This document shows positions 30,635-49,603 of a stretch of DNA of 64,000 bases, piece after piece; within the stretch, counting starts at the first letter, position 1, and each line of letters starts with the position of its first letter. The position numbers and the translations under genes were made by a program. The stretch covers positions 16,260 to 80,259 of IMG/VR virus record IMGVR_UViG_3300021185_003122. The stretch is one strand, 5' to 3'. The notes under the pieces were generated by a model. The model saw nothing but the letters and a program-made list of their open reading frames with translations. It was not told the DNA's origin and made no database searches. This DNA is from a virus.

Positions 30635-31743
30635 TAACCTTCATATTTGTTTACTACGTCAACAATCTTATTTCTATCTTCTTCTGTTACCCACCATCCA
30701 CAAGGAATGTTAATCATCTTTCTACTAAACTCATCTAATCCTGGTTGAGGTCTTCTATAGTTCTTAAAGACAGAGTACTCATCATTTCTAACATGTGCAA
30801 CGTCTGATGCTATATCATTAGCTTTAAGATAATCTTGAAACTTTCTTTTATCTTCTACTAAAATAGAATAAAGCCAGTAACTAGATGTTCCATTAGATAC
30901 TCTTCTAGGAATAACAACGTTAGGGTTAGAAATATTTTCATCATAGAACTTACCATTGTTAACATGTCCATCAATAACATTATCAATGTACTTTAAATTC
31001 TCTATTCCAATAGCTGCATTGACATTATTCATATGAAACTTATAACCAGATTCAGTTATATCTTGTTCCCATCTAGATGCTGGTGCTTCACCAGGAGGTG
31101 ATTTGTAATGTCTATCTAATCCAAACCATCTTAATTTTCTAGCTCTTTCAGCATCTGCTTCTGACTTACATGCAATTGCTCCTCCATCTACACATGTAAG
31201 ATGTTTGACTGCTTGAAAAGAAAAGCATACATAATCACTATGACTACCAATTCTTATATCTTTGTAAGTAGACCTTAATGCATGAGCTGCATCTTCAATA
31301 GTTTTGATACCATTAGCTTGAGCAAGATTATTTATTTCATCTAACTCACATGGCTGACCTGCCCAATGGACCATCATGATTGCTTTAGTATTGTCATCTA
31401 TCAACTCTTTGATAGAATTAACATCTATGTTTCCAGTATCAGGCTCTACATCAGCAAATCTAATCTCTACTCCCATATTATGAAATGGTTCATTAGTTGC
31501 CATACAAGTCATAGCTGTTGATATAACATTATCGCCTGGTTTAAAGTCACACATATGAGCTGCAAGAGTAAGAGCTGATGTTCCGCTATTAACTAATCTT
31601 ACGTTAGGGTTACCAATATACTCTCCAAATTGTTTTTCAAATTCATCAGAGTATTCTCCTTCGGTTAAGAAACCTGTGTCAAATACTTTCTGTACTACCT
31701 CCCCTATATTAGGAGGAGTATGTACTTTCATTAGTGGTATCAT
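30634..31743 (-). CDS. DegT/DnrJ/EryC1/StrS-type sugar aminotransferase
   Basis: The family signature is clear: LVNSGTSALTLAA (PLP phosphate), IEDAAHALRS (aspartate and histidine of the ring-binding site), and Lys180 in SFQAVKHLTCVDGGAI, the Schiff-base lysine. The enzyme transfers an amino group to a keto-sugar nucleotide, giving an amino sugar for the glycan. Its partners here are the SDR genes on either side. One-base overlaps with both neighbours show translational coupling. Confidence 0.93.
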   Translation of the reverse strand: MIPLMKVHTPPNIGEVVQKVFDTGFLTEGEYSDEFEKQFGEYIGNPNVRLVNSGTSALTLAAHMCDFKPGDNVISTAMTCMATNEPFHNMGVEIRFADVEPDTGNIDVNSIKELIDDNTKAIMMVHWAGQPCELDEINNLAQANGIKTIEDAAHALRSTYKDIRIGSHSDYVCFSFQAVKHLTCVDGGAIACKSEADAERARKLRWFGLDRHYKSPPGEAPASRWEQDITESGYKFHMNNVNAAIGIENLKYIDNVIDGHVNNGKFYDENISNPNVVIPRRVSNGTSSYWLYSILVEDKRKFQDYLKANDIASDVAHVRNDEYSVFKNYRRPQPGLDEFSRKMINIPCGWWVTEEDRNKIVDVVNKYEG

Positions 31744-32738
31744 TAATATTCGTATTTAGAGTTAACATTTAAAAAGTATTCTAACATTCTAATAATTCCA
31801 GTCTTAAAGTCAACTGTTGGAATTATATTTGTTTGAGCTACTACTTTATCTATATTAGGACATCTTCTTAATGGTTCATCAGAAGGATAGTCATCAGGGT
31901 ACGAAATAAGATCATAGTTAGGTTCTACACCTAATGATTCGTAAAACTTATCAGCTAACTCAATCATATTTAATTCAGGAGATGGATTCCCTACATTATA
32001 AATCTCACCATCTTTACCAGATAGAAGCAACTGAGTAATCATCGCTATACCATCACCAGCATAACAGAATGTTCTAGTCTGTTTACCATCTCCGTATATT
32101 TTAATTTTTTCTTGACGTAAATGAGCTCTCATCCAATTTGATAAAACTCTATTGTCATTGATTCCCATATAGGTTCCATAGAAGTTAAATGGTCTTACTA
32201 CCTTTACCGGTACATTATATTCGTTGTAATAAATGTTACATAATGTCTCTAGTACTTGTTTTCCTATATCATAACAACTTCTATTACTCATTGTAGGAAT
32301 AGCTCCTATGTAAGTCTCTTTAGTAGGAATAGCTCTAGGGTCTGGAGTACCATAAACCTCACTAGAACTAAACATAATAACTGATTCAACGTTTTTCTCT
32401 CTAACATAATCAAGTACGTTACGAGTACCTATGTACGATATATCCATCGTAAGTACAGGCTGCTTCATATACTTCTCAGGGCTAGCTATACCTGCACAGT
32501 TAATAACATAATCATATCTAGGAAGACTCATCAAAGCCTCTTTATTATTTATGTCATGTTCTGGATTAATTGAAGGATCGAAAGCTAAGTACTCTACTTT
32601 CAAATGTTCGAATAAGTCTACAAACCAATTTCCTAAGAAACCATTTGAACCTATTAGTAAAACTGTTTTATTTTTAAATTGATCTACATCTACTCTTGAA
32701 GTAATACTATTTAGATCTTGTTCATTTACGTAATTCAT
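31743..32738 (-). CDS. NAD-dependent sugar dehydratase/decarboxylase-like SDR
   Basis: GSNGFLGNWF at residues 30-39 is the NAD-binding loop and Tyr146-x3-Lys150 (SCYDIGK) the catalytic pair. RPFNFYGTYMGINDNRV and CYAGDGIAMI resemble UDP-glucuronate decarboxylase and related SDRs. With the neighbouring UDP-glucose-dehydrogenase-like enzyme it could make UDP-xylose or a similar sugar, an inference from context. It overlaps the acetyltransferase gene by 17 nt. Confidence 0.88.
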   Translation of the reverse strand: MNYVNEQDLNSITSRVDVDQFKNKTVLLIGSNGFLGNWFVDLFEHLKVEYLAFDPSINPEHDINNKEALMSLPRYDYVINCAGIASPEKYMKQPVLTMDISYIGTRNVLDYVREKNVESVIMFSSSEVYGTPDPRAIPTKETYIGAIPTMSNRSCYDIGKQVLETLCNIYYNEYNVPVKVVRPFNFYGTYMGINDNRVLSNWMRAHLRQEKIKIYGDGKQTRTFCYAGDGIAMITQLLLSGKDGEIYNVGNPSPELNMIELADKFYESLGVEPNYDLISYPDDYPSDEPLRRCPNIDKVVAQTNIIPTVDFKTGIIRMLEYFLNVNSKYEY

Positions 32739-35154: not shown

Positions 35155-35605
35155 AGAAATCTATAACCTCTAATGCATCCATAAAGTCTTTTGGAGCAAA
35201 CTTCTTAGCTTGCTTAACATCCATTTTAAATGTTTGACCCTCTGGGAATTTACCTGATTTAATTTCTTCTTCAGTTAACGGAATAGCTTTAACTGCAGAC
35301 CATTGCCAGTCTTTAGTAGATGTTCCATCAACAAACACCATTCCTTTTTCTGGAAGAGTGATAGTAGCAGGAAACCATATTCTGCCTTCCTTATCTTTAT
35401 GCATTAAGTCTTTATATAGTTCAGGAGATGTTTCTAATAAGTCTTGTACTGGTTTAGAACCTTCTGTCATAAGTGTAGAAGTTGTATAACCACTACCAAA
35501 ACATAACCATGTTTTTATCTCTTGATTGTCTTGATTGAAGGTCTGTTCATAACAAGCATTGCTACCGAAAGGACCTTCTACTAATTGATCTTTTTCTAAT
35601 TTCAT
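35144..35605 (-). CDS. Hypothetical protein, 153 aa
   Basis: A soluble alpha/beta protein with CFGSGYTTSTLMTEGSKPV and WFPATITLPEKGMVFVDG. No catalytic motif. It is tightly packed in the glycan cluster (11-nt and 4-nt overlaps). Conserved in feel but not recognised; could be an accessory protein of the glycosyltransferases or a structural protein. Confidence 0.6.
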   Translation of the reverse strand: MKLEKDQLVEGPFGSNACYEQTFNQDNQEIKTWLCFGSGYTTSTLMTEGSKPVQDLLETSPELYKDLMHKDKEGRIWFPATITLPEKGMVFVDGTSTKDWQWSAVKAIPLTEEEIKSGKFPEGQTFKMDVKQAKKFAPKDFMDALEVIDFYGN

Positions 35606-36873
35606 ACCTTTGTAAGTTTAGGAAGTTCTAGTTCAGGCATTTTTAATTCTACCTTAACTGCAAATTCTGGTACGTACTTATCATTGTAACCTTTAAGTAT
35701 CTCTACCATTTTTTCAAACGAAAAGTTTTTCTTATTTACGTTCTTTAATTGTTTAGCAGGTCTAACATAATCTTTATACTTCTTAAATACTTCTGTTAGT
35801 GCTTTACCAACTTGAGCATCGTCAGGAGTAAACCATTTAGACTGTTCAAGTATCATATCTTTTACTGCTGCTGATTTATCTACATTAGTTAACGAACCTC
35901 CTATTAGTACTGCTTTGTCTTTATCTAAAAAGTCTACCTGACCAGACCATGCTGATGCTATAATAGGTTTACCTGTTAAGCTAAACTCTAGTAACGGTCT
36001 ACCAAATCCTTCTCCTTTTGTAAAGCTAATCATAGCTTTTACTTTAGGATTATTGTATAACTGATTAATTTGTTCGTCAGTTAATTCTCCTGTTACTAGG
36101 TAGATGTTAGGTAACTTACCTTTAACTGTCTTTCTAATGCCATCTATCTTATCTAGTATGCGTTCCTTATCTAATAAAGATGAACCTACCTGTTGTGTTT
36201 TAAGAATAAGTCCAGGAGCCTTTTGTTTGTTCTTAAACGTTTCTAGGAATGCCTTTATCATATAGCCTACATTCTTTCTATCCTGTCCCATATTACCTTG
36301 CATCCAGTGTCCAACAAATAGATAATTAAAGCTTTCTTCTACTGATGATAAATCAAATGCAGTTGTAGATTCAGCAAAGTATTTAGTTAAATCTGCTCCT
36401 TCTAATAGTATTTCTATTGGCTTATCTAACGTTATAGTCTTTACTACCTTATCAGAGTTATTTTCTTTCATTTCATATCGTGTACCTTTAAACACATCTA
36501 ATGAATGTTTAGAAGAGGTTAGAATAAGATCCATTCTATTACAACCTTCCAACCAAGTCTGGTGTACTAATGTTGATTCCATTCCAGCTGTAACACCTAT
36601 GTTATAATTACCAACGGCTTGGAATTCATTAGGTACAGTAATCTGTATCCACAAATCAGGCTTCTTTGGTAGTTGAGGTATAATTGTGCTTGATAGTAAA
36701 TCCTCTTTATGGTCAGCTAAATAACCAAATCTAGTATTACCCCATCTCTGTGATAAAGTCTTTACTTCGTATTTATCTAATGCTATGAGAGCTTTAACGA
36801 AATCTCTTGCTCTTGCTCCATAACCGGAATATGTATCTAAAGGGCAGCTTACAACTGCTAATGGTTTGTTCAT
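35602..36873 (-). CDS. Glycosyltransferase, GT4-like
   Basis: The 423-residue protein has an N-terminal KPLAVVSCPLDTYSGYGARARDF loop and the C-terminal GT4 signature: NPKVKAMISFTKGEGFGRPLLEFSLTGKPIIASA, with the E-G-x-G-x-P-x-x-E-(A/F) pattern that binds the nucleotide. Two Rossmann domains are expected. Donor and acceptor unknown. Two bases separate it from the next GT4 gene, with which it forms a pair. Confidence 0.88.
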   Translation of the reverse strand: MNKPLAVVSCPLDTYSGYGARARDFVKALIALDKYEVKTLSQRWGNTRFGYLADHKEDLLSSTIIPQLPKKPDLWIQITVPNEFQAVGNYNIGVTAGMESTLVHQTWLEGCNRMDLILTSSKHSLDVFKGTRYEMKENNSDKVVKTITLDKPIEILLEGADLTKYFAESTTAFDLSSVEESFNYLFVGHWMQGNMGQDRKNVGYMIKAFLETFKNKQKAPGLILKTQQVGSSLLDKERILDKIDGIRKTVKGKLPNIYLVTGELTDEQINQLYNNPKVKAMISFTKGEGFGRPLLEFSLTGKPIIASAWSGQVDFLDKDKAVLIGGSLTNVDKSAAVKDMILEQSKWFTPDDAQVGKALTEVFKKYKDYVRPAKQLKNVNKKNFSFEKMVEILKGYNDKYVPEFAVKVELKMPELELPKLTKV

Positions 36874-36874
36874 T

Positions 36875-38317
36875 TTAATAACCTATTAATTTATGTTTAA
36901 CTCGTTTTGAAGGTCTAGGTCCTATCTTTTCTATTTCATAGATTGGTCTTGGAACAAAGTTATCAAAACCTTTCTCAACAGACTCTATAATCCTTTTACA
37001 CATGTAGGGTGAAGACATATTAGATTCGTCTGAAAGAACCCATTCATGTCCTTTACTACCTCTTCTGTCTCTTTCTTCTGGACCTAAATCATATATAGTT
37101 TTTATAGCATCAGCTACATCTTCAGGTTTACATCTATCGTCAAATATGTATGGAGTTAATGGTGAACCCATCATTGACATATTAGATGGAAATACTGGTA
37201 CTGCCCACTCACCATGCTCTTTATATGTACCCCTATGGTTAGATGGTATATCAGCTGAAGGTGTAAACCATTCGCCGTTATCATCTAAGAATTTAACCTG
37301 ATCTTGCATACCTCCTGTTACGTTAGGTATAATCATAGTACCAGTCATCATAGCTTCTGTTAGCGAAAGTCCCCATCCTTCATTAGACGACATAAGAACA
37401 TTTACATCTGCTATGTTATATAGTAAGTTCATTTGCTCTGGTGAAAGCTTTTCAGTATTAAAGAATACATTTACATATTCAGGATCACAGAATGTATCTT
37501 TTATAGCTTTCAAATCAGTTCCGTGTTGAGATGATATCTCAGTTTTCATAACTAAAGCACACTTCTTTGCTTTTTCTTTACCTATCATCTCACAGAATTG
37601 AGTATAAGCTAATACAACGTCTCCAGGATGTTTACGTTGGATGTTTCTTGAGTTAAAGAATACTACATACTCTATATCTCTTCCGTTAAACATACTCTTT
37701 TTAAACTCTTGAAGTTTCTCAAAGTGAGGGTTATCTTTTTTAATTGGAAAGAAGTACTTAGGGTTTATACCATGAGGAACATATTCTAATACTTTATTCT
37801 TTGCATCATCACCTAATACTAATTCATTAATTAGTTTAGTCTGTTTAGAGATAGCCATTAAAGTATCTACTGAGTTATAATAATGTTTGTTGTACATAGG
37901 AGCAGGAAACTCATCCCATATGTTTAACCACATGATTGGAATTTTGCTTCTTATCTCTCTTTCTATATCAAATAACCAAATCCAATATCTAGGATCAGTA
38001 AAAATAAAAATAGCATCAGGTTTCTGCTGCTTTATCAACGTTCTAATAGCTGTAGCATCTCCATATCCATTGCTTGGCATGACCATAACACTAGCGTCTG
38101 GAGTACCAATAGTTTTATCTACATCAGCAGATATGTCAAATACTTTTCCTACTTCAGGATGCTTCAATGCTGCTCCTAAATTAAACCAATTGAACCTATG
38201 AGAGGTTCCTACAACTATTTCTCTAGCCATAGTTGCTACTCCGGAATGCATTCGTATATCATCACAGAGAAGTAATATTTTTTTCCTTTCTGCTTTTGGA
38301 ATATAACCTTCTATCAT
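36875..38317 (-). CDS. Glycosyltransferase, GT4-like
   Basis: A 480-residue GT-B enzyme. KILLLCDDIRMHSGVATMAR gives the N-terminal nucleotide-fold loop; YVPHGINPKYFFPI follows at the domain junction, and DVNVLMSSNEGWGLSLTEAM is the C-terminal GT4 signature with E-G-W-G-L-x-x-x-E-A. It starts next to a ribbon-helix-helix gene. It forms a pair with the previous GT4 gene and may elongate the glycan. Confidence 0.9.
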   Translation of the reverse strand: MIEGYIPKAERKKILLLCDDIRMHSGVATMAREIVVGTSHRFNWFNLGAALKHPEVGKVFDISADVDKTIGTPDASVMVMPSNGYGDATAIRTLIKQQKPDAIFIFTDPRYWIWLFDIEREIRSKIPIMWLNIWDEFPAPMYNKHYYNSVDTLMAISKQTKLINELVLGDDAKNKVLEYVPHGINPKYFFPIKKDNPHFEKLQEFKKSMFNGRDIEYVVFFNSRNIQRKHPGDVVLAYTQFCEMIGKEKAKKCALVMKTEISSQHGTDLKAIKDTFCDPEYVNVFFNTEKLSPEQMNLLYNIADVNVLMSSNEGWGLSLTEAMMTGTMIIPNVTGGMQDQVKFLDDNGEWFTPSADIPSNHRGTYKEHGEWAVPVFPSNMSMMGSPLTPYIFDDRCKPEDVADAIKTIYDLGPEERDRRGSKGHEWVLSDESNMSSPYMCKRIIESVEKGFDNFVPRPIYEIEKIGPRPSKRVKHKLIGY

Positions 38318-40022: not shown

Positions 40023-41096
40023 CTAGAGATAAGTTATTTTATTTTCGTCTTCTTTATCTATCCACCCTTCAGAACCATCTTCAAATTCTACTCTTCTTCT
40101 TGAAGGAGTTTTTTGTAGTATTCTTTTTACTTTTTTTTCTTCTTCTTCATCAACTACCTTCCAATCTTCTGGAGCTTCTACTATACTATAGTCAACGTCC
40201 ATATCTCTTACGTCAGTTTCTTCTTCATCAATATCGTCCCACAAGTCCTCTGGTACTTCATCTTCATATTCATTATAAAGATTCTTTCTATTAGCTTGAT
40301 CAAATGCAAAGTTAGCTGCTACTACTAATGATATTGCAAGAGGATCAAATACAAATATGATTACTAATAAAAGAATATTAATAATCTTATCCATAGGAGT
40401 GCCTGTTAGACCAGAAAGATACTCTAATGGACCTAACTCACCTGCTACGTCTGTATTGTTTTCTAAATCTAATATAGCTAGTTGATATTTCTGTAAGCTA
40501 TCTGCTACTTGTTCTCTTTTCGCTTGTATAGCCGCTCTATTTTCTTCTTCAACATTAATACGACTTTGGGATAATCTAAGTTCGGCAGTACTAACTGTTG
40601 ATCGAAAGCCTGTAGATGATGTCGTGTCTCGTACTTGAATCGAGGTCGCTTTCGCATTAGATAAAGTAGAAATGTTATTAGAGATTCTTTCGAGTTCCTC
40701 ATCATACCTTGCCACATCCTTTCCATAAAAATCTGTCTTTTGTTCTAGAAATGCTACTTGATTATTCTTAACTGTTAACTGTCTGTAAGTATCTTGATAT
40801 GCTGCACTTAAAAAGCCGTATATACCCATACTAGTAATCAATACCAATACTACCGCAGCAATAGAGAGATACGTTCTAAGAAGCTTATTGATAGTGTCCC
40901 AATACTGATATAAGAGAGAAGCTATGACAAGTTTAGCTACTTCTAATGAACCAGCCATTATAATAACTTCAAATGTAGCTCCAGCAAATAGTTTAGATAA
41001 TCCACTAACAGAATAGAAAGCAGCAGATGCACTAACAGATAATGCTGAGAGTGCTATAATAGAAGGGAATATGTTTCTTTTTATTCTATTGATCAT
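40023..41096 (-). CDS. Multi-pass membrane protein with coiled coil
   Basis: Four membrane segments are visible: about 12-33, 40-63, 73-95 and, after a long coiled coil (about 95-220), 235-265. The C-terminus is acidic and basic by turns (WKVVDEEEEKKVKRIL), on the cytoplasmic side. No enzyme motif. Its start overlaps the spanin-like gene by 4 nt (ATGA), so it is part of the lysis operon. The role is unknown; similar large coiled-coil membrane proteins occur in marine phages. Confidence 0.7.
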   Translation of the reverse strand: MINRIKRNIFPSIIALSALSVSASAAFYSVSGLSKLFAGATFEVIIMAGSLEVAKLVIASLLYQYWDTINKLLRTYLSIAAVVLVLITSMGIYGFLSAAYQDTYRQLTVKNNQVAFLEQKTDFYGKDVARYDEELERISNNISTLSNAKATSIQVRDTTSSTGFRSTVSTAELRLSQSRINVEEENRAAIQAKREQVADSLQKYQLAILDLENNTDVAGELGPLEYLSGLTGTPMDKIINILLLVIIFVFDPLAISLVVAANFAFDQANRKNLYNEYEDEVPEDLWDDIDEEETDVRDMDVDYSIVEAPEDWKVVDEEEEKKVKRILQKTPSRRRVEFEDGSEGWIDKEDENKITYL

Positions 41097-41521
41097 TGTA
41101 CTAACAGTAGTAAGACTGCTGCAGCACCAACTGTAGTTCCTATTTTATAGAGTTTTTTGGCACGAGCTTCCTTTTTTAATTGTATTTGTAATTGTTCAGA
41201 TAACTCAGAACTAGTACCCAGCTGTAGATCTTTTTGATCAATAATACTCTGGTAATTTAAGACTTGACTTTCAAGATTAGTAACTAATTGAGACTGTGTT
41301 TCAAGTTTATTGTTAGTTTCTACTAACAATTCATTTAATGTTTTAACCTCTAATTTTAAACCGTCACCTGTAATAAGATCTTTTACTACTAACTTAGCTA
41401 TAGGTTTAGTTAATTGTATCGTTGTACTGTCCGTAACGTTTTGTGAAGTAGCGTTCCAGCTCATCATCAGTAAGGTCATTAACAGCATCAAGTTTCTTAT
41501 TTGTTTCTTTTTTGATAACAT
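41093..41521 (-). CDS. Exported coiled-coil protein, spanin-like partner
   Basis: An N-terminal signal (LMLLMTLLMMSWNATSQ) is followed by a coiled coil (about 60-120) and a C-terminal membrane segment (YKIGTTVGAAAVLLLLVQ). It overlaps the previous gene (41406-41753) by 116 nt in another frame, like Rz/Rz1 overlaps. With an export signal and terminal anchor it could act as the second part of a two-component spanin. Homology is not provable; this is inferred from topology and location after the amidase gene. Confidence 0.6.
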   Translation of the reverse strand: MLSKKKQIRNLMLLMTLLMMSWNATSQNVTDSTTIQLTKPIAKLVVKDLITGDGLKLEVKTLNELLVETNNKLETQSQLVTNLESQVLNYQSIIDQKDLQLGTSSELSEQLQIQLKKEARAKKLYKIGTTVGAAAVLLLLVQ

Positions 41522-41753
41522 TTATACTATAGTTTAAATTACGAATCTTTTTATCATACTCAACTATCTGTATTTCCAGAGAGTCAGCTTGTTTATCTAA
41601 AATAGTATTCTTTGAATGTAAAGAATCTACTTTTTTTTCTAACATATCTATCTTATCAAGATAGGATTGTACGTCTATATCTTCTTTTTTATTTATAATC
41701 CAGAAGATACATAACGTAGTAATACATAAAAGTATAACTGATATACGGTTCAT
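41406..41753 (-). CDS. Inner-membrane spanin-like protein (Rz-like)
   Basis: An N-terminal membrane helix (about 4-20) and a long coiled coil (about 24-90) with a C-terminal TDDELERYFTKRYGQ give the i-spanin topology. It follows the amidase gene and overlaps the next gene by 116 nt. Spanins disrupt the outer membrane in the last step of Gram-negative lysis, so a Bacteroidota host fits. A class 1 promoter at 41760-41788 is almost directly before its ATG. Confidence 0.65.
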   Translation of the reverse strand: MNRISVILLCITTLCIFWIINKKEDIDVQSYLDKIDMLEKKVDSLHSKNTILDKQADSLEIQIVEYDKKIRNLNYSINVIKKETNKKLDAVNDLTDDELERYFTKRYGQYNDTIN

Positions 41754-41759
41754 TTCATT

Positions 41760-41788
41760 AATATACTAAATTTATTTCGATTAAGCAA
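41760..41788 (-). promoter_or_regulatory. Class 1 promoter with almost no leader
   Basis: AGTTG, 20 nt, TATATTAATGAAATG on the minus strand. The -7 box ends 6 nt before ATG 41753, so the transcript could be leaderless. It overlaps the amidase stop region. Confidence 0.65.
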
Positions 41789-42272
41789 CTAATAGTTGTT
41801 TAAATCTCTCCCAATCAAATGCTGAACCTGGATCAGTTTTACCTTTGCCTTTTCCTCTAACATGATCTCCACTACAATCAGAATGTCTAACAATATTCTG
41901 GATTGATATACTATACTCATCCATCCAGTACTTAACTACTTCAACAGATGTATTCATTTGTTCTTCAGAATAAGTCCCCTCAGTCTCTATAGCTTTTGAA
42001 AAGCTTCCGAAATCATGTGTACCTGGAACTAATAATTCGAAACCTAAAAAATGAGAGTTCAATCCTGATAATCCATTCCATTCTGATTTACCTGCATGAA
42101 ATGCTTTACCAGGTGAACTAACCATCTTTTCGTATGTTCCATCAGGTTTAATAAAACCATGTACTGATAATCCTATAGACTTTAAAAAGTCATGGGCATA
42201 CATTGGTCCGTCATCTAACTTTAGATACTCAGACATTGAGTGTACTATTACTCCTTTTGGTTTAATTGGCAT
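41781..42272 (-). CDS. N-acetylmuramoyl-L-alanine amidase (endolysin)
   Basis: An Amidase_2/T7-lysozyme-like enzyme of 163 residues. The zinc ligands are His11 (VIVHSM), His130 (IVRHSDCSGD) and the distal Cys/Asp region, with Lys145-Thr146-Asp147-Pro148-Gly149 (GKTDPG) giving the catalytic K-x-D-P-G block. It cleaves the amide bond between N-acetylmuramic acid and L-alanine in peptidoglycan. No signal peptide, so it needs a holin. The upstream holin-like genes and downstream spanin-like genes complete the lysis cassette. Confidence 0.93.
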   Translation of the reverse strand: MPIKPKGVIVHSMSEYLKLDDGPMYAHDFLKSIGLSVHGFIKPDGTYEKMVSSPGKAFHAGKSEWNGLSGLNSHFLGFELLVPGTHDFGSFSKAIETEGTYSEEQMNTSVEVVKYWMDEYSISIQNIVRHSDCSGDHVRGKGKGKTDPGSAFDWERFKQLLVA

Positions 42273-42274
42273 AA

Positions 42275-42505
42275 TTATTCTTTTTTACCACCGAAAATTT
42301 TACCTGCTTCAGCTATTCCAAATGAACCTAATACAATCCATACAAAAGAGTTGTATATAAATTCGTTGATTACAAGGTCTTTACCTACGTATCCAGTAAT
42401 CAAATCCACTAAAGCAAATAATACTATAATTACAAATGATGCGAATCCGACTACTGTCTTTTCGTTAATATCATTTTTATCGTTAAATAAGTCTTTAAAA
42501 GCCAT
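42275..42505 (-). CDS. Holin-like small membrane protein
   Basis: The 76-residue product has two hydrophobic segments (about 18-38 and 50-66) with a short charged N-terminus and C-terminus (AGKIFGGKKE). It lies immediately before the amidase gene (two-base gap). Size, topology and place make it the best holin candidate in the cassette. No sequence family is certain. Confidence 0.65.
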   Translation of the reverse strand: MAFKDLFNDKNDINEKTVVGFASFVIIVLFALVDLITGYVGKDLVINEFIYNSFVWIVLGSFGIAEAGKIFGGKKE

Positions 42506-42510
42506 TATAA

Positions 42511-42837
42511 TTAGTTTTTGTTTTTATTGTAAGCTTGTGTTCCAAAGAACGCTGCAACAATAGCTGCAACAGAAACAAAATAAGTTGCTGCCATATCACC
42601 AAGTATTTGTGATGCTTGATCTAAACCTATTAGATTAGCTAGCACTACTGCAAATGGATAAAGTAACATACCAAATAAAGCAAACCATGCCATCTTACGT
42701 TGAGCATCTCTCATTGCATCTTGGTCATCAAGTTCTTTTCTCTTGAACTCTAGATACATATCATGTTCTGCCTTTGATACTTTACCGTCTCCGTTAGTAT
42801 CTGCTGGGTGTAAAGCTTTTTTCTCTTTTTCTTCCAT
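42511..42837 (-). CDS. EF-hand membrane protein, possible calcium-controlled holin or lysis regulator
   Basis: DTNGDGKVSKAE (residues 13-24) is a textbook EF-hand loop (Asp at 1, Asn at 3, Asp at 5, Gly at 6, Glu at 12), followed by a charged helix and two membrane segments (about 48-70 and 78-100). It is the first gene of the lysis set. It may bind calcium with the N-terminus in the cytoplasm or periplasm and affect hole formation; this is inference. A CTATTTAT motif lies 4 nt before the ATG. Confidence 0.7.
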   Translation of the reverse strand: MEEKEKKALHPADTNGDGKVSKAEHDMYLEFKRKELDDQDAMRDAQRKMAWFALFGMLLYPFAVVLANLIGLDQASQILGDMAATYFVSVAAIVAAFFGTQAYNKNKN

Positions 42838-42841
42838 ATTA

Positions 42842-42850
42842 ATAAATAGT
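42842..42850 (-). promoter_or_regulatory. CTATTTAT motif (class 2, possible late promoter)
   Basis: ACTATTTAT on the minus strand, 4 nt before the ATG at 42837; it overlaps the stop of the outer-membrane gene. Confidence 0.4.
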
Positions 42851-44727
42851 TAAAAACTTAATCTACCTCCAATCATAAAGTTTACCATAGTAGGAAAATC
42901 TTTTATAGTGGCATCGATTACAGTTGTTCCTAATGTTAACCCAAATCTTTGAGTAAACATATAATTAAAATTTGTTCCTCCTATAACCATTACATCTGTA
43001 TTCCAAGTTGTATCATAATTAGTTAAACTCTGAGTAATAAATGGAGATGATACAGCTACCATAGGACTAATAGTTAATCTATCATTGTATTTAAAAGACT
43101 TAGTAGCAAAACCAGTTAATGAACCAGCAAGCACTATGTCATCATAGTATATGTATCCTTCTCTTACATCAAGTTCTACAGATGTTATAGTAGTTCCTAA
43201 TGCAAATCCACCTACTAGACCTTTCTTACCTAAAAATACTAGTGAATGGTTCATAGTACCCATATAGGATGTAAACATTTTCATCCCTCCTACAGCGGCT
43301 GAATATACTCTGTTAACTCTTCCTTCATCATTTACATGAACTCTAGAATAATTAAGGTTTAACATAAACTGTTCTAAATTGTCATACACCATTAAGTTAG
43401 CACCAAATGTTTCAGTACCTAGCAAAGTAGTCTGGCTTATGCCGAACATTGTAGCATAGGAATATTTTCCGTCAACTCCTTGTTGAGATAGTACGTTAGC
43501 GGCAAGGACTGGAGGAGCAAAAGCTCTTTTTTTCTTTTCATCCTCATCATCTTCCTCTTCGTCTTCGTTTGAAGTTTCTTCTTCTTCGCTTTCTTCCTCA
43601 TCATCCTCAGATTCTTCTTCGTCAGACTCCTCTTCATCTGATTCTTCTTCACTGTCCTCTTCTGACTCCTCGTCTGATTCTGATTCTTCTTCTGACTCTT
43701 CTTCTGATTGTTCTTCATCTGATTCTTCGTTTTCTGATTCTTCTTCGGTTGACTCTTCTTCAGTGGATTCCTCCTCTGTAGATTCTTCTTCTGTAGTTTC
43801 ATCTGATTCAGATTCACTTTCACTTTCAGTTTCTGATTCAGATTCACTTTCAGTACTATCATCAGATTCACTCTCTGTAGATTCACTTTCACTTTCTGAT
43901 GATTCTGATTCTGTGCTTTCACTTTCGGTACTTTCTGATTCAGTAGATTCAGTTTCAGTTGATTCTGTTTCTGTTGATTCAGTTTCAGTACTCTCTGTAG
44001 ACTCGGTACTTTCTACTTCTGTAGATTCTGATGAACTTTCTTGAGACGTTTCTTGCGAGCTTTCTCCGCCAGATGACGTTTCGGATGAAGAAGCTTCTGT
44101 AGACGTTTCTGTACTTTGCGTTTCTGTTGAAGCAGTTCCTTCAGTACTAGTTGTGTCTGGTTGCGAACTCCCCTGGCTCGATTCAGTTGTTGTGGGTTGT
44201 GATGTAGACGTATCAGGAGTACTCGTGTCTGGTGTTGATGTAGTTGTATCCGGTACGCTAGTATCAGGAGCCGAAGTCGTAGTATCTGGAACAGTAGTCG
44301 TAGGTGCTTCAGTAGTAGCGGGAACGTTAACATTAGTAGATGTTGCATCGGGTATAGTATTTGTCGTAGCAGTTTGATTCGCAACGTTAGTAGCATTAGC
44401 TGCTGCTTCTGTAGCCTGCTGCGTGGTTTGTTGAGTTTGTTGAGTTGTATTTACTACAGTACCTCCAGTAGTTGAACATGGACTAAGAGCATTCCACCAC
44501 AGCCAGGTTTCTTCTAGCCATGCTTGTAATTCACCATTTTGGAATTCTGCTGCTGTAAATGTACGGGACTTGTTATAGAATGCTACAACAGTCTGTCCAT
44601 TCATAGGTACACTAAATACAGAGACTGCTCCTGTACACCTATCTACATAGGTTTGGATCAGGGCCTGTGAGTAGGCCCGACCCATCCCCATCGCAGTAAT
44701 TACTATAATTAATAGCAACCTTCTCAT
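42850..44727 (-). CDS. Outer-membrane barrel protein with long acidic Ser/Thr/Glu linker
   Basis: A signal peptide (about 1-20) precedes an 80-residue Trp-containing domain with a Cys pair. Next is a Thr/Pro/Ala-rich linker, then about 200 residues of Ser-Glu-Thr and Glu/Asp runs (about 190-400), ending EDDEDEKKK. The last 215 residues form an even, alternating beta pattern, ending GGRLSF with a terminal Phe, as in outer-membrane beta-barrels. This looks like an exposed spacer attached to a barrel. It is adjacent to CsgG-like and lipoprotein genes and probably belongs to the same exported assembly. Confidence 0.75.
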   Translation of the reverse strand: MRRLLLIIVITAMGMGRAYSQALIQTYVDRCTGAVSVFSVPMNGQTVVAFYNKSRTFTAAEFQNGELQAWLEETWLWWNALSPCSTTGGTVVNTTQQTQQTTQQATEAAANATNVANQTATTNTIPDATSTNVNVPATTEAPTTTVPDTTTSAPDTSVPDTTTSTPDTSTPDTSTSQPTTTESSQGSSQPDTTSTEGTASTETQSTETSTEASSSETSSGGESSQETSQESSSESTEVESTESTESTETESTETESTETESTESESTESESTESESSESESESTESESDDSTESESESETESESESESDETTEEESTEEESTEEESTEEESENEESDEEQSEEESEEESESDEESEEDSEEESDEEESDEEESEDDEEESEEEETSNEDEEEDDEDEKKKRAFAPPVLAANVLSQQGVDGKYSYATMFGISQTTLLGTETFGANLMVYDNLEQFMLNLNYSRVHVNDEGRVNRVYSAAVGGMKMFTSYMGTMNHSLVFLGKKGLVGGFALGTTITSVELDVREGYIYYDDIVLAGSLTGFATKSFKYNDRLTISPMVAVSSPFITQSLTNYDTTWNTDVMVIGGTNFNYMFTQRFGLTLGTTVIDATIKDFPTMVNFMIGGRLSF

Positions 44728-44732
44728 AACAA

Positions 44733-45446
44733 TTAGTGATCAAAAATTCCTTTTCGTATCATTCTCTTCACTATCTTTGCGACTGCAGTCTCTAATGCTT
44801 TTCGAGTAGATACACCCACTGAGGAGGAATTGAATTTTACTTCATCTAAATTGTCTGAGTTAGTTAAGGTTAGCTCTCTAGTAGTAATTGCTTTACCTAA
44901 TCCTGATCCGGTCATATAAAGGCCAGTTTCAGAATCAACTGCTCTGATTTGTAGTCCTAGTCTGGTAACTAGTTTGTTTTTAATCCCATCTTTAAGATTT
45001 ATAGTTTCATCTTCTGATACAGAGTAGTCATATACTTCAACATAAATAAAATATTTAGCTAAAGTAATGTTACCTTTGATATCGATATCATTAGCTGTAA
45101 ATCCTTTTTGGGATGCTTTATATTGAGTCACCATTCTATTCTTGATTTCATCTCGAGTTTCGACAAATTCGAATCTCCAAGTTTCGTCAAGGAATGCTAC
45201 AGTAATGTTAGTCAGACCTAAACCTACTCTATTATCCCTTAATTCAGGATATTGGTTTAGAACGTCTTCTGTAACTCCAATATTAAGGAGAGCTACTGGT
45301 ACTGGATCACCATCATATTCTGGTATTGAGTATAACGAGGCTTGTTTCTCAAAATCCGCCTGATAATCCTCTGTAGTAGTCTTTCCTATTTGTTGTGCCG
45401 ATATAGAAGTACTAAATAATAGTAGTACTAATAATCTTTTAACCAA
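44733..45446 (-). CDS. CsgG-like outer-membrane secretion channel protein
   Basis: The start is taken as TTG 45446 (LVKRLLVLLLFSTSISAQQ), overlapping the previous stop; the longer frame (from 45512) would run 74 nt into that gene and lose the clean signal peptide. The mature protein has the CsgG pattern: a soluble alpha/beta core, LGLQIRAVDSETGLYMTGSG and the C-terminal helix VSTRKALETAVAKIVKRMI. CsgG makes a nonameric outer-membrane pore for curli. Here the lipobox Cys of classical CsgG is absent (SAQQ), so it may be anchored differently. Confidence 0.8.
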   Translation of the reverse strand: MVKRLLVLLLFSTSISAQQIGKTTTEDYQADFEKQASLYSIPEYDGDPVPVALLNIGVTEDVLNQYPELRDNRVGLGLTNITVAFLDETWRFEFVETRDEIKNRMVTQYKASQKGFTANDIDIKGNITLAKYFIYVEVYDYSVSEDETINLKDGIKNKLVTRLGLQIRAVDSETGLYMTGSGLGKAITTRELTLTNSDNLDEVKFNSSSVGVSTRKALETAVAKIVKRMIRKGIFDH

Positions 45447-45654
45447 GGGTATCGAAGATGCCCCAAGTTGCGTTGTCAAATGTAGCTGGGTTAGTAACAA
45501 GTTCCCATACAATAGTAGAAAATCCTACTAAAAATAGAGAAGATAGTGTTAAAAACCAGGCTGCAAAAAATAATACTAAACTTTTTCGTGTAAAAGTTGT
45601 AGCTTCGAGATATTCTTCTTTTATTAAAGAATAAGGGTTTACGTAATTGTTCAT
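45439..45654 (-). CDS. Small membrane protein in the CsgG-like module
   Basis: The 71-residue product has a charged N-terminus (MNNYVNPYSLIKEEYLEATT), one strong membrane segment (about 25-50) and a Thr/Asn-rich end. It overlaps the CsgG-like gene by eight bases. No named family. It could be an accessory component of the secretion module. Confidence 0.6.
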   Translation of the reverse strand: MNNYVNPYSLIKEEYLEATTFTRKSLVLFFAAWFLTLSSLFLVGFSTIVWELVTNPATFDNATWGIFDTLG

Positions 45655-45690
45655 AGTTTCAATTTTAATGGTTACAAATTAATTCTTATC

Positions 45691-45724
45691 GGAGCCGATA
45701 GTTGCCGCTATCGGTTCCTTTTTT
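45691..45724 (+). terminator. Strong hairpin with T-run on the plus strand
   Basis: GGAGCCGATAG (45691-45701), loop TTGCCG, CTATCGGTTCC (45708-45718), then six T. Eleven pairs with one G-T. On the minus strand there is no T-run, so it would terminate plus-strand transcription, opposite to every gene nearby. Confidence 0.7.
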
Positions 45725-45738
45725 CTACTGCGATATAA

Positions 45739-46029
45739 CTACCAATCTAAACCTGCCTTCTTCCTTTTTTCGGTTTCAGTAAGTTTAGGTTTGGCTTTAA
45801 TAAACACCTTCTTTACGACGGTATCTTTCTTTTGTTCCGGAATAGTAATATTGATTGTAGGGCCTTCCACATTAACGTTTTGTTCTTGCTTAACCTCTAC
45901 TGCCGAATCATCACTTTCTACTCCGAAAAACTCTTCTACTTTATCTGTAAAAACTGTACCTAAAGTTGTAAGTACAATTGCTACACCTGCAGTTATCTGA
46001 GCCTTAACGTTTTTTAATAGATTTTTCAT
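45739..46029 (-). CDS. Exported or anchored small protein
   Basis: A basic N-terminus and a hydrophobic segment (about 10-28, ITAGVAIVLTTLGTVFT) are followed by a charged tail containing EVKQEQNVNVEGPTINITIP and a basic end. It is probably a single-pass protein with its C-terminus outside the cytoplasm. It lies in the CsgG-like module between two lipoprotein genes and the terminator-like hairpin. No known family. Confidence 0.6.
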   Translation of the reverse strand: MKNLLKNVKAQITAGVAIVLTTLGTVFTDKVEEFFGVESDDSAVEVKQEQNVNVEGPTINITIPEQKKDTVVKKVFIKAKPKLTETEKRKKAGLDW

Positions 46030-46031
46030 AT

Positions 46032-46709
46032 TTAATCATCACTGACTGGAGTCTCATCTGGAGCACATCCTTCAGCATTTACATTGTTTATTTGAGTTAT
46101 AGGAGTATCTGGGCATTTATCTAATGCGTTAATAACACCGTCATAGTCATAATCTGCTACTGCAACTAATTGATCAACTCCTTCACCCACTTCTTGTAAA
46201 GAGGCTAAAAGTTCTTCTACTTGTGCTTTAGTAGCTTTAGTTTTCATTGTAGCTAGTATATCTTGTAGTCCTAATTTAATGTTAGCTATTTGTAAAAAGA
46301 TACCTGCCCATTGATTACCTTCATCATATAATGTCTGAAGTCCTTCTAAGGAGCTAACTACTCCGTTCAGGATATCGTCTATTTCAGATAAAAATTCTTC
46401 ATTAACAAGCATTGCTTCTTCGTAAGCTAACATAGCATCATTATACTCTAACATAGCTTCATTATACTCTGCAAGATGAGCATTATACTCCATTACTGCA
46501 TCGTGATAATTCTGTACTCCCTCAACGATAACTTCTAAATCCATTACGATTTGTTCCATATCGGAAGTAATTTGAGGAATGTTTAATGCTTCAAACGAAT
46601 TAACTACTTCTTGTAGCGATTCATTTAATCTAGCAAATCCTCTTTCCATCGAAGGGTTGGTACACCCTAATAATAATAAAACACTTAGTACTGCGAATAC
46701 GTTTTTCAT
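46032..46709 (-). CDS. Coiled-coil lipoprotein with thrombospondin-type-3-like end
   Basis: The signal peptide ends at LLLGC (Cys16), so a lipoprotein is likely. Residues about 25-185 form a long coiled coil with repeated EYN-A-x-L-x-Y sections (AHLAEYNEAMLEYNDAMLAY). The end carries ADYDYDGVINALDKCPDTP, a thrombospondin type 3/OmpA-linker calcium repeat (D-x-D-x-D-G-x-x-D). It could span or space the periplasm. It overlaps the neighbouring lipoprotein by four bases. Confidence 0.75.
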   Translation of the reverse strand: MKNVFAVLSVLLLLGCTNPSMERGFARLNESLQEVVNSFEALNIPQITSDMEQIVMDLEVIVEGVQNYHDAVMEYNAHLAEYNEAMLEYNDAMLAYEEAMLVNEEFLSEIDDILNGVVSSLEGLQTLYDEGNQWAGIFLQIANIKLGLQDILATMKTKATKAQVEELLASLQEVGEGVDQLVAVADYDYDGVINALDKCPDTPITQINNVNAEGCAPDETPVSDD

Positions 46710-47086
46710 TTTACAAACAATTTAACTGACTGTTTTTCATTCCCACTTTCATCTAAAAACTTAAATGTATAGTCTCCAGTTTCAAGTACTCTGGTGTATA
46801 TCGTATAAACGTTATCACCTTCCGTTACCTTTAAGGTATTTCTACTAACCAATTGTTTAGCTAAGTCTAATATTTCAACTGTGTATGTTCCGTCAACGTC
46901 TGTTTTTATATTAAACTTTGCTCCATCATAAACACTATTGTCATCAAACTGCAAGCCAGTAGTCTCTTCTATTTTTAACTCACTAGCTACCCATTGAGTA
47001 ACTGTAAAGTCATATTCATCTGGTGCACATGCTAAAAATAATGTGAACAAGATTGTATAATACCATTTTTGAAAATTGTAGCTCAT
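46706..47086 (-). CDS. Small lipoprotein with Ig-like/carbohydrate-like beta fold
   Basis: The lipobox FLAC gives Cys20. The mature 107 residues are all-beta (TGLQFDDNSVYDGAKFNIKT, VDGTYTVEILDLAKQLV, ETGDYTFKFLDESGNE), like an immunoglobulin or secretion-associated beta-sandwich. It lies between the coiled-coil lipoprotein and the large secreted protein and overlaps the former by 4 nt. Probably outer-membrane anchored; its role in the module is unknown. Confidence 0.65.
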   Translation of the reverse strand: MSYNFQKWYYTILFTLFLACAPDEYDFTVTQWVASELKIEETTGLQFDDNSVYDGAKFNIKTDVDGTYTVEILDLAKQLVSRNTLKVTEGDNVYTIYTRVLETGDYTFKFLDESGNEKQSVKLFVK

Positions 47087-47089
47087 TTT

Positions 47090-48910
47090 TTATTCTATAT
47101 TTAATTGTACTCTAACTGCATCCATATCTGAAGCATCAGTACTTGTTAATATTATTAATCCTGTAACACCGTTAATCTGTGCGGTCTTACTAAAAGTTAC
47201 AGTATATGTTGTATCTGACATAGAATCACCTAGAGTATTAATTGAACCAAAGTTTACTCTATTTTCAGTTACTTTAGCAAAATTAGTAGTAGTGTTTCCT
47301 GAATCAGCTTTTACAGAATCAAAAGATAATCTTGAATCATCAAAATTTAATCTTATTTGTGCTGCAGATAAATTACTTTCTGGTATTGATATTGTTGCTA
47401 CTACTTTATCTCCATCTTCTTCTACTATCATAGTACCATTAACCAAATCTATTTGAGCTCCTCCTACTCCTGTAAACATATTTACTGTTGATCTACCAGA
47501 TGGAGAAGATGCAAATGAAATAGATACTGCATCATTTACTATACCGTTACTAACACTTGGTGAATGAGAAAGATTTACATCACCTTTCCAAGTACCGTAT
47601 ACTTCAAATGTTTGACCTGAAGAGATATTGCTAAAGTTTACATCTATTTCAGTTAATGATCCGTTATGTGTTATACCATTTGCTTCATATGACTCTGCCG
47701 TTGTATTTGTATATGTACTACCGTCTGTAGATCTAAAGAAGTTTACACCGTTATTATTAGCATCAGTGTCATCTACATCTCCATCACTATCAATATCAAC
47801 ATACAACTCACTCACACCCATTACGTGAGCTAATAACTTATAAGTATCAGAATCGTCTAATATGTTATCATTAGCCCCATTAGTTCCTCCTGCTACATCA
47901 GCATTAAATTTTGATATACCTGCATTAATTGCTCCTGCACCATGTGTTGCTAGTTCTTTAAGAGCTAACTGTACATCTGATATAGTTAATATATCTTCAT
48001 ATAAAGTTTTAAAATTATTATTACCATCATCTACAGGTAAACCATAGTTCCATATTACTCCGTAATCTTCTGAAGTACTAGTAATATAAGAAGTAATATC
48101 TACTGATCCATCTGAAGGAACATTTAACCAGTAAGTGTTACCTGATATTAAATTAACCCAATTATCTCCATCTTTTTTAACTGGTACTAATTTAAACTTG
48201 GTCATATCAACGTTACTACCCATATTAAGTTTAGCAGTAATACCTTGCACGTCTATATCTTCTAATGGTGTATTTGTAAAGTCTTGATTTTCATATGCAT
48301 AAACTGGGCTATAAACTTTCGTTGTACCGTTTGTTAAATTAGCAGTTATCCTACCCATAGTAATCATTATGTTATCAGTATAGTCATGATTTGTACCAGC
48401 ATCTTTAACCTTGAACTTTAATTTTACAAAGTAATCTAGTTCTCCTAAATCACCACCAGTTGTTTGTGTCTGAGGGTGTAGGTTATTCCAACCAGTATTT
48501 TGACCATAGCTACCATTCTGCCATTGAGCCCATATATCGTATGCTTCATGGTTACTATTAAACGTCATCTTATATCCAGTCATTTCAAATAGACTGTTCT
48601 GTGGGTTGTCACTTGACGGTGCCATATATTCCGTTCCTAAATACGTATATGCTGCATTATTATACTCAACATCAATGTGAGCATAAGTTATGTCATGAGT
48701 ATCAGATAACCAATTCGTTAATTTGATACCAAATACAATAGTATCATTAACTTCTACATCTGCTATAGCTAAATTAGAGTTAGATGGTGAACCTAACCAC
48801 ACAAGGCCAGCTGCTCCTTCTCCATCTGCTACATCAGTAGAACTAGGTCCAGACAACTGTCCAATAGACAATGCTGGGATTAGAGTTAATAATAGTAAGA
48901 GTTTTCTCAT
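47090..48910 (-). CDS. Large secreted cohesin/dockerin-like protein
   Basis: A signal peptide (about 1-18, MRKLLLLLTLIPALSIGQ) leads a 606-residue beta-rich secreted protein. The first 200 residues resemble a cohesin-like domain (VNDTIVFGIKLTNWLSDTHD). Around residues 371-388 is DIDSDGDVDDTDANNNGVNF, a calcium-binding dockerin-like loop, and the last 150 residues look like a second beta domain with SFDSVKADSGNTTTNFAKV. It probably is the substrate or surface component of the CsgG-like secretion module. The last codon block overlaps the small gene at 48907. Confidence 0.75.
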   Translation of the reverse strand: MRKLLLLLTLIPALSIGQLSGPSSTDVADGEGAAGLVWLGSPSNSNLAIADVEVNDTIVFGIKLTNWLSDTHDITYAHIDVEYNNAAYTYLGTEYMAPSSDNPQNSLFEMTGYKMTFNSNHEAYDIWAQWQNGSYGQNTGWNNLHPQTQTTGGDLGELDYFVKLKFKVKDAGTNHDYTDNIMITMGRITANLTNGTTKVYSPVYAYENQDFTNTPLEDIDVQGITAKLNMGSNVDMTKFKLVPVKKDGDNWVNLISGNTYWLNVPSDGSVDITSYITSTSEDYGVIWNYGLPVDDGNNNFKTLYEDILTISDVQLALKELATHGAGAINAGISKFNADVAGGTNGANDNILDDSDTYKLLAHVMGVSELYVDIDSDGDVDDTDANNNGVNFFRSTDGSTYTNTTAESYEANGITHNGSLTEIDVNFSNISSGQTFEVYGTWKGDVNLSHSPSVSNGIVNDAVSISFASSPSGRSTVNMFTGVGGAQIDLVNGTMIVEEDGDKVVATISIPESNLSAAQIRLNFDDSRLSFDSVKADSGNTTTNFAKVTENRVNFGSINTLGDSMSDTTYTVTFSKTAQINGVTGLIILTSTDASDMDAVRVQLNIE

Positions 48911-49008
48911 TTCTTTTTTCCTAAATTTTTGTTACTTACACCGTACATATCTCTTAGACCGTCATCAATCCAATCGAAAAAGCGAAGTAGCTTTTTTATT
49001 ATTTTCAT
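48907..49008 (-). CDS. Tiny basic protein, 33 aa
   Basis: The frame from ATG 49008 to TGA 48907 encodes MKIIKKLLRFFDWIDDGLRD plus a basic tail. Its start overlaps the previous stop as ATGA, and its stop overlaps the next start in the same way. Such exact coupling on both sides argues that it is translated. An amphipathic helix is likely. Function unknown. Confidence 0.55.
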   Translation of the reverse strand: MKIIKKLLRFFDWIDDGLRDMYGVSNKNLGKKK

Positions 49009-49475
49009 ATTTTTAATTTATCTATCAACTGCTCACATAGTTTCTTAATTGCTGTAGAAACGTTAGCTTGTGAAAACTTACCTCCTTCGTCTACTAATAA
49101 GGTGGCTGTTGATATAGATTTAGCAGTACCTTTCGCTACTACTTGTTTTTTCTTTTTTCCATTTTTCTTCAATGTTGCTCTAGCAATGATCTGATAAAGG
49201 TCTACGTTTTTGTTGTAAACAGCTAACTGAACATTATTCTTCTTTACATCGAAGTATAATATGTCTACAGTAATTTCGAGTTCTGAGTTTGGATTAAGAT
49301 CGTATCCATAGTCCTGGATAACTTCTTCTAACATATTGGTTACTCCAAAAGTTAGATCTCTATTCCCGACTAAGTCGCCGAGTTGTATCTTATTCTCAAC
49401 TGTTCCTAATTTAATTTCTTGTGCTGTTAAGCAGAAACTAAATAGGAAACTTAATAAAAAAAGTAAAAGCCTCAT
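49005..49475 (-). CDS. Periplasmic protein of the CsgG-like module
   Basis: A signal peptide (about 1-18, ending LTAQ) leads a 138-residue mature protein with a compact alpha/beta pattern: TFGVTNMLEEVIQDYGYDLNP, VDILYFDVKKNNVQLAVYNKN, QIIARATLKKNGKKKKQVVAKG and a C-terminal helix AIKKLCEQLIDKL. The helix-end resembles CsgG-like and LptE-like subunits. It heads the secretion block and sits 73 nt downstream of a CTATTTAT motif that follows a terminator. Its role is inferred from context. Confidence 0.65.
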   Translation of the reverse strand: MRLLLFLLSFLFSFCLTAQEIKLGTVENKIQLGDLVGNRDLTFGVTNMLEEVIQDYGYDLNPNSELEITVDILYFDVKKNNVQLAVYNKNVDLYQIIARATLKKNGKKKKQVVAKGTAKSISTATLLVDEGGKFSQANVSTAIKKLCEQLIDKLKI

Positions 49476-49561: not shown

Positions 49562-49583
49562 AAAAAAAGGGGCCGAAGCCCCT
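49562..49583 (-). terminator. Rho-independent terminator
   Basis: On the minus strand AGGGGC-TTCG-GCCCCT followed by TTTTTTTG. It ends the transcript of the gene at 49604-49843. Confidence 0.92.
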
Positions 49584-49603
49584 CTAATTAAACTATTGTA
49601 TTA

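Follow-up and report, generated by a model that had tools for sequence, protein, structure and literature searches.

A conserved set of exported proteins with a CsgG-like member encoded beside the lysis genes of Bacteroidota phages

The stretch of DNA analysed here, below called the window, comprises 64,000 nucleotides (positions 16,260 to 80,259) of the 80,259-base virus record IMGVR_UViG_3300021185_003122 from IMG/VR and is AT-rich (about 32% GC). Its positions 42850-49475 are filled by eight minus-strand genes, all of which encode exported or membrane proteins, and this block is far from a chance arrangement, since independent phages have these genes in the same order as well. As best explanation, to which we give an even chance, the block encodes a phage envelope complex that is expressed together with the late lysis genes and presents an adhesin built on cohesin domains at the surface of the infected Bacteroidota cell. 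Going further, and at clearly less than even confidence, we propose a dedicated viral outer-membrane export system, consisting of a CsgG-fold ring, a barrel with an acidic tether and a Trp-tailed protein of the inner membrane, which exports and mounts a modular cohesin/dockerin/lectin complex on infected Bacteroidota cells, is found in hundreds of phages, and is as a set unrelated to described cellular secretion operons. The exported gene set, carried by many Bacteroidota phages, is apparently undescribed, as a literature search leaving out most subscription papers found no description of it. The display reading is supported by the five-gene core present in every fully flanked locus, by the cohesin domains and type IX secretion system (T9SS) sorting domains of relatives, and by the CsgG fold of one core protein, whose profile also links it to cellular CsgG-domain proteins above shuffled controls. 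Further points counted for it are the homology between a lipoprotein of the window and such a sorting C-terminal domain (CTD), the dockerin proteins with lectin, LamG or PA14 domains, the association with holin-like genes and the tight gene packing.

Layout, spread and conservation of the module

A first-pass annotation, made from the letters of the sequence, had placed nine exported or membrane-associated proteins in this block. The block and its open reading frames (ORFs) were found where it had put them, but the number is eight:

49005..49475, minus strand: peri156, 156 amino acids (aa) with signal peptide, exported periplasmic protein
47090..48910, minus strand: coh, 606 aa with signal peptide, secreted cohesin-dockerin-cohesin protein
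46706..47086, minus strand: lipo126, 126 aa with lipobox (..LACA), domain homologous to the T9SS type A CTD of type-2 coh
46032..46709, minus strand: lipo225, 225 aa with lipobox (..LGCT), coiled-coil lipoprotein, optional
45739..46029, minus strand: sm96, 96 aa, one N-terminal transmembrane segment, low-complexity tail, C-terminal Trp
45439..45654, minus strand: tm71, 71 aa, small membrane protein by hydropathy, optional
44733..45446, minus strand: CsgG-like protein, 237 aa with signal peptide, TTG start, exported, predicted CsgG fold
42850..44727, minus strand: barrel, 625 aa with signal peptide, two-Cys N-terminal domain, acidic linker, predicted barrel-like C-terminus

The gaps between these genes measure -8 to 94 nucleotides (nt), and the gene run extends into the lysis genes and is densely packed between 49475 and 40023. 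When the proteins of the window were scanned with Pfam and PHROG, almost no match lay above cut-off. Scans of IMG/VR yielded 386, 246 and 113 confirmed stretches with relatives (overlapping sets, of which the best 80 were kept each time), on contigs of up to 434 kb. Among annotated phages, matches are confined to four records of Flavobacterium phage immuto, and 84,980 genomes of bacteria and archaea contributed no more than two (L105 and L106). Both lie on contigs of metagenome-assembled genomes (MAGs), 12.6 and 254 kb long; L106 is viral-looking by gene content, and the two probably represent phage sequence that was put into the bins of host MAGs.

Dereplication led to 93 loci, all picked via the CsgG-like gene, and in 76 of them the flanks on either side measure 5 kb or more (full flanks). 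The five-gene core of peri, coh, sm96, CsgG-like and barrel is complete in all 76 full-flank loci. Taken singly, sm96, coh, barrel and peri occur in 92, 91, 88 and 85 of the 93 loci, respectively; coh and barrel were grouped by single-linkage clustering, which may have merged some relatives into these groups. The gene order, whose conservation in related phages the first-pass annotation had left to be checked, is indeed conserved. Two arrangements can be distinguished. Type 1, to which the window belongs, has the order peri-coh-lipo126-(lipo225)-sm96-(tm71)-CsgG-like-barrel, whereas type 2, found in immuto and many larger phages, reads coh-sm96-(holin-like)-CsgG-like-barrel-(lectin/dockerin)-(second barrel)-peri, in some loci with a GH19-type endolysin upstream. 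Within the module, the CsgG-like protein shows the highest conservation in all distance bins, and coh and barrel are among the least conserved members; in one example the values are 70% for the CsgG-like protein versus 46% and 39%. Such a pattern would be expected if a constant machine carried a cargo that is exposed and changes quickly, and, with adhesin and barrel diverging fastest, it is counted for the display reading.

The CsgG-like protein and its relation to curli systems

The designation of the 44733-45446 product as CsgG-like, originally given by the first-pass annotation, stands with respect to the fold, but not with respect to Pfam CsgG or a profile of curli CsgG. An AlphaFold model built from 50 sequences reached a predicted local distance difference test (pLDDT) score of 76.9 and a predicted template modelling (pTM) score of 0.71, whereas an earlier model from 11 close sequences (pLDDT 37) was discarded. 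In a Foldseek search of the PDB with this model, ranks 1-19 are all curli CsgG (E to 4.7e-8, probability 1.00), followed by PelC, FlgT and LptE-type proteins, and the top viral structural match is an annotated phage CsgG. As the template modelling (TM) scores to CsgG are modest, 0.4-0.6, the protein is, judged by the model, a member of the CsgG superfamily rather than a proven pore. It would share its fold with the curli channel CsgG of E. coli (PDB 4uv3, 6l7c), including a similar order of strands and helices and a long hairpin that follows helix two, and both are exported envelope proteins. However, the identity is only 14-17% and the CsgG-like protein has no consistent lipobox: a lipobox-like pattern occurs in only 6 of 73 members, and an AQ cleavage pattern of the signal peptidase I type in 70 of 73. 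Long strands are predicted at residues 132-150, 154-171 and 177-192; by eye, hairpin 1 has about the length seen in CsgG and hairpin 2 is about eight residues shorter.

At the level of sequence the relationship is remote. None of the 50 family members matches Pfam CsgG (PF03783), even at E<=10, nor does the window protein, and a PDB sequence search with it gave nothing useful. The 50-row profile does find a cellular CsgG-domain protein (E=7.9e-4). A first hhalign link to such cellular proteins was set aside, since signal peptides and a sequence that the profile itself had found made it look too strong. Repeated with the signal peptides removed and the self-found protein left out, hhalign gave 32.5, compared with at most 21.3 in 40 controls with shuffled columns. 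When only true curli CsgG sequences are compared, the score is 16.2, which is not above shuffles. The cellular CsgG-domain proteins that lie above shuffles occur without curli (e.g. L109 and L295) and differ from the module in being chromosomal and longer and in having another gene context.

The proposal of the first-pass annotation that the block is a type VIII (curli-like) unit could not be maintained, as CsgE, CsgF, curlin and a Pfam CsgG match are missing and most members of the CsgG-like family lack a lipobox. No CsgE or CsgF was matched by Pfam among the neighbours, and hhalign of the module profiles to CsgE and CsgF of E. coli was insignificant, as was the comparison of the single E. 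coli CsgG sequence with these profiles. Pfam scans of the module proteins found no curlin repeat, so that the remark that classical CsgA repeats are absent was correct. CsgG similarity of the 44733-45446 product and a conserved gene order had been the two points on which the annotation let its reading depend, and both were found, the similarity by structure.

Curli genes in phages are known from the csgFG operons of Pelagibacter phage HTVC008M and methylophage Melnitz, which resemble the module in that a phage-borne CsgG-type protein lies beside exported repetitive proteins. Those operons, however, contain a true CsgG (about 37-40% to E. coli), CsgF and curlin-type repeats and belong to phages of other hosts. 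As none of their tested proteins matches a module profile, the pelagiphage csgGF operons are, as far as the sequences tell, a non-homologous parallel, and the Bacteroidota module is a separate solution. For the pelagiphage operon a role in "sibling capture" was proposed (PMC7029224), and for the CsgG pore of Melnitz a gating of lysis (PMC9004378); clumping was not seen with Melnitz. In HTVC008M, too, small membrane proteins are encoded ahead of csgFG, namely two of 93 aa (L297, 3847-4409).

The adhesin, its partners and the other exported proteins

That the 47090-48910 product is an exported protein of the cohesin/dockerin type, as first annotated, was supported by Pfam Cohesin matches in relatives and by alignment to type-2 coh. 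Pfam Cohesin matched in 8 of 12 aligned type-1 relatives (best 5.2e-6) and, above cut-off, in type-2 coh (up to 1.2e-10), and both types are collinear over most of their length (E=7.5e-10). Dockerin-like repeats, weak in Pfam, sit between the cohesins. By its domains, coh is likely to be a surface adhesin or scaffold; of its suggested role as a secretion substrate, the export is supported and the passage through the CsgG-like protein is unproven.

At its C-terminus, type-2 coh bears a sorting domain of T9SS type A, whose scores exceed the curated cut-offs (TIGR04183 up to 44.8 bits vs 23); TIGR04183 and Por_Secre_tail (PF18962) are above cut-off in type-2 coh and in gp15 of immuto. This points to the T9SS of the host as an alternative export route, and phage genes tagged for the T9SS are known from Cryophage (PMC7468147). 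The lipoprotein lipo126 aligns with the CTD of type-2 coh (hhalign 39.2; maximum of 14.9 in 40 column shuffles). Therefore the sorting-type domain of the window, as its sequence indicates, has become, or began as, a separate lipoprotein, which leaves the coh of the window without a sorting signal of its own.

Many relatives add dockerin-bearing proteins with interchangeable Lectin_C, LamG or PA14 domains. Grouping them by N-terminal domain was abandoned, because a shared leading segment merged all of them into one cluster, and Pfam was used to read their domains instead. A C-type lectin motif was found in 38 of the 93 loci and on no minus-strand ORF. Cohesins and dockerin-like repeats are common to the module and to cellulosome-type scaffolds, and module relatives have in addition the CTD of T9SS type A cargo. 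Unlike cellulosomes, the module is viral, no attached enzymes were seen, and the partners are lectin, LamG or PA14 domains. In phage immuto, gp13-gp19 (NC_055915) represent the same core, with cohesin proteins carrying a T9SS CTD, a Trp-ending small protein, a barrel, a peri protein and a CsgG-like protein (51%). There, the adhesin is divided among several genes, a C-type lectin is present, and the CsgG-like protein and the barrel are annotated as "hypothetical".

Among the remaining module proteins, peri156 shows a weak match to Lipoprotein_16 (YajG; E=0.0019) and aligns with the CsgG-like family in hhalign (95%, E=1.9e-8), and by this similarity it is probably a paralogue of the CsgG-like protein with a YajG/CsgG-type domain. 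The protein sm96 has a hydropathy segment at residues 10-28 and, in all 73 of 73 loci, Trp as its last residue, which is a strong hint in the sequence to a C-terminal docking signal, although no known C-terminal signal could be identified. The tm71 family occurs in 33 loci, and many relatives have a holin-like gene in its slot. Of the two lipoproteins annotated at first, one with a coiled coil and a calcium repeat, the lipoboxes were confirmed, whereas the TSP3-type calcium repeat of lipo225 is weak (Pfam E=0.005, below cut-off); lipo225 is present in 10 of about 80 close loci. The barrel protein has two conserved Cys in its N-terminal domain, a Glu/Ser-rich linker (106 of 220 residues acidic at 181-400), a C-terminal domain that is predicted to be outer-membrane barrel-like, and Phe as last residue.

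Link to lysis, proposed function and rival explanations

The position beside lysis genes, already recognised in the first-pass annotation, was confirmed: the gene run of the module continues into them, and in relatives it often encloses them. Two families of holin-like genes occur within or next to the module in 61 of the 76 full-flank loci (51 placements inside), and the holinA family does so in 39 of 76; endolysin-type genes are found in 46 of 76, and L001 and L007 have an amidase gene within the module. This mixing of exported and lysis genes suggests a remodelling of the host surface late in infection.

In the envelope complex assumed here, the CsgG-like protein would form an outer-membrane ring working with the acidic-linker barrel, and sm96 would span the periplasm from the inner membrane and dock via its C-terminal Trp. 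The adhesin would exit through this complex, or via the host T9SS in type-2 relatives, and be held by lipo126 or its own CTD, and dockerin lectins would insert into the cohesins. The favoured benefit would be a masking of receptors or debris around lysis that blocks superinfection and loss of progeny; capture of neighbouring cells (sibling capture) comes as a close second, and help with lysis may be a further purpose. Several points weigh against this display reading. Surface location and timing are inferred from the sequence, and secretion through the CsgG-like protein is putative. The TM-scores of this protein to CsgG are modest, its second hairpin is shorter, and its strands show a weak alternation without a clean membrane-spanning pattern. 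Furthermore, the coh of the window has no Pfam match itself and its cohesins are seen by alignment only, and the window lacks a lectin gene of the dockerin/lectin kind.

Alternatively, the module could be a lysis machine, in which the CsgG-like ring, the barrel and the sm96 bridge open the outer membrane or time lysis and the cohesins are structural. The frequent holin-like and endolysin-type genes, the amidase within the module of L001 and L007, the spanin-like layout of sm96 with its invariant Trp and the lysis role proposed for Melnitz CsgG (PMC9004378) would fit. Yet the cohesin, dockerin, lectin and sorting domains are left unexplained, no holin-like gene and no lysin could be recognised nearby in 13 of 76 loci, and the window also has a (weak) Rz-like spanin candidate; this explanation is judged unlikely, if the least so among the alternatives. 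We are likewise doubtful that the adhesin is exported by the host T9SS by way of its sorting domain, with the CsgG-like protein, peri156 and the barrel only anchoring or capping it as a PelC- or LptE-like ring with no channel. Such hitchhiking is in line with the TIGR04183 and Por_Secre_tail domains of type-2 coh and immuto gp15, with the Cryophage precedent (PMC7468147) and with PelC and LptE among the structural matches, but Foldseek ranks CsgG above PelC, and in the window the CTD-like domain lies on a separate lipoprotein, coh itself being left with no sorting signal.

A true curli or type VIII system carried by the phage would agree with the CsgG fold and with the occurrence of curli operons in pelagiphages (PMC7029224), but it is already largely refuted and very improbable, as CsgE, CsgF and curlin are missing, none of the 50 members matches Pfam CsgG, the profile scores no better than shuffles when compared with curli CsgG, and the pelagiphage curli proteins match no module profile. 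Virions commonly carry immunoglobulin-like and lectin domains, which would speak for virion components such as head or tail decorations. All core proteins, however, carry Sec signal peptides, lipoboxes or membrane segments, which cytoplasm-assembled virion proteins normally lack, and we give hardly any credence to this possibility either.

If the display reading is true, the module would be a widespread and conserved phage means of rebuilding the host exterior as infection ends, which does not depend on the pelagiphage curli operons and yet reaches a similar CsgG-type solution. It would connect viruses with type IX secretion and with cohesin-dockerin display and give a testable role to hundreds of "hypothetical" genes of Bacteroidota phages, for which phage immuto on Flavobacterium sp. 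LMO8 is a cultured model.

The following features adjoin the module in the window:

49566..49585, minus strand: terminator-like hairpin, 8-pair G+C-rich stem followed by TTTTTTT, directly upstream of the module on its coding strand
42511..42837, minus strand: EF-hand-like protein with two transmembrane segments (hydropathy), EF-hand_5 E=0.003 (below cut-off)
42275..42505, minus strand: holin-like small membrane protein of the holinA family, putative holin
41781..42272, minus strand: amidase endolysin, PHROG amidase E=1.4e-16
41406..41753, minus strand: Rz-like spanin candidate, phrog_739 Rz-like spanin E=0.0056 (weak)
41093..41521, minus strand: exported partner of the spanin candidate, overlapping it by 116 nt, no PHROG match

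The two membrane or exported ORFs at 41093-41753 show, with their overlap, an arrangement typical of Rz/Rz1 spanins and are by this layout a probable spanin pair, with weak PHROG support; the holin-like product of 42275..42505 had no PHROG holin match. The protein at 42511-42837, which adjoins the holin-like gene, has an EF-hand-like motif, DTNGDGKVSKAEH, followed by its two membrane segments and is possibly a calcium-sensing membrane protein, as judged by the motif. A search for Bacteroidota -7/-33 promoters gave fewer matches than chance, and sigma-70-like sites were at chance level only. Within the 84-nt gap between sm96 and tm71, a 12-pair hairpin (45691-45718) has a T-run on the plus strand only and may be a processing or attenuation element on the coding strand. 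Outside the module, the window encodes two glycosyltransferases and a nucleotide-sugar epimerase (35602-38317 and 31743-32738), possibly a second, sugar-based route to a change of the host surface, and a phage-encoded GroEL chaperonin (60961-62619; PHROG E=1.3e-165).
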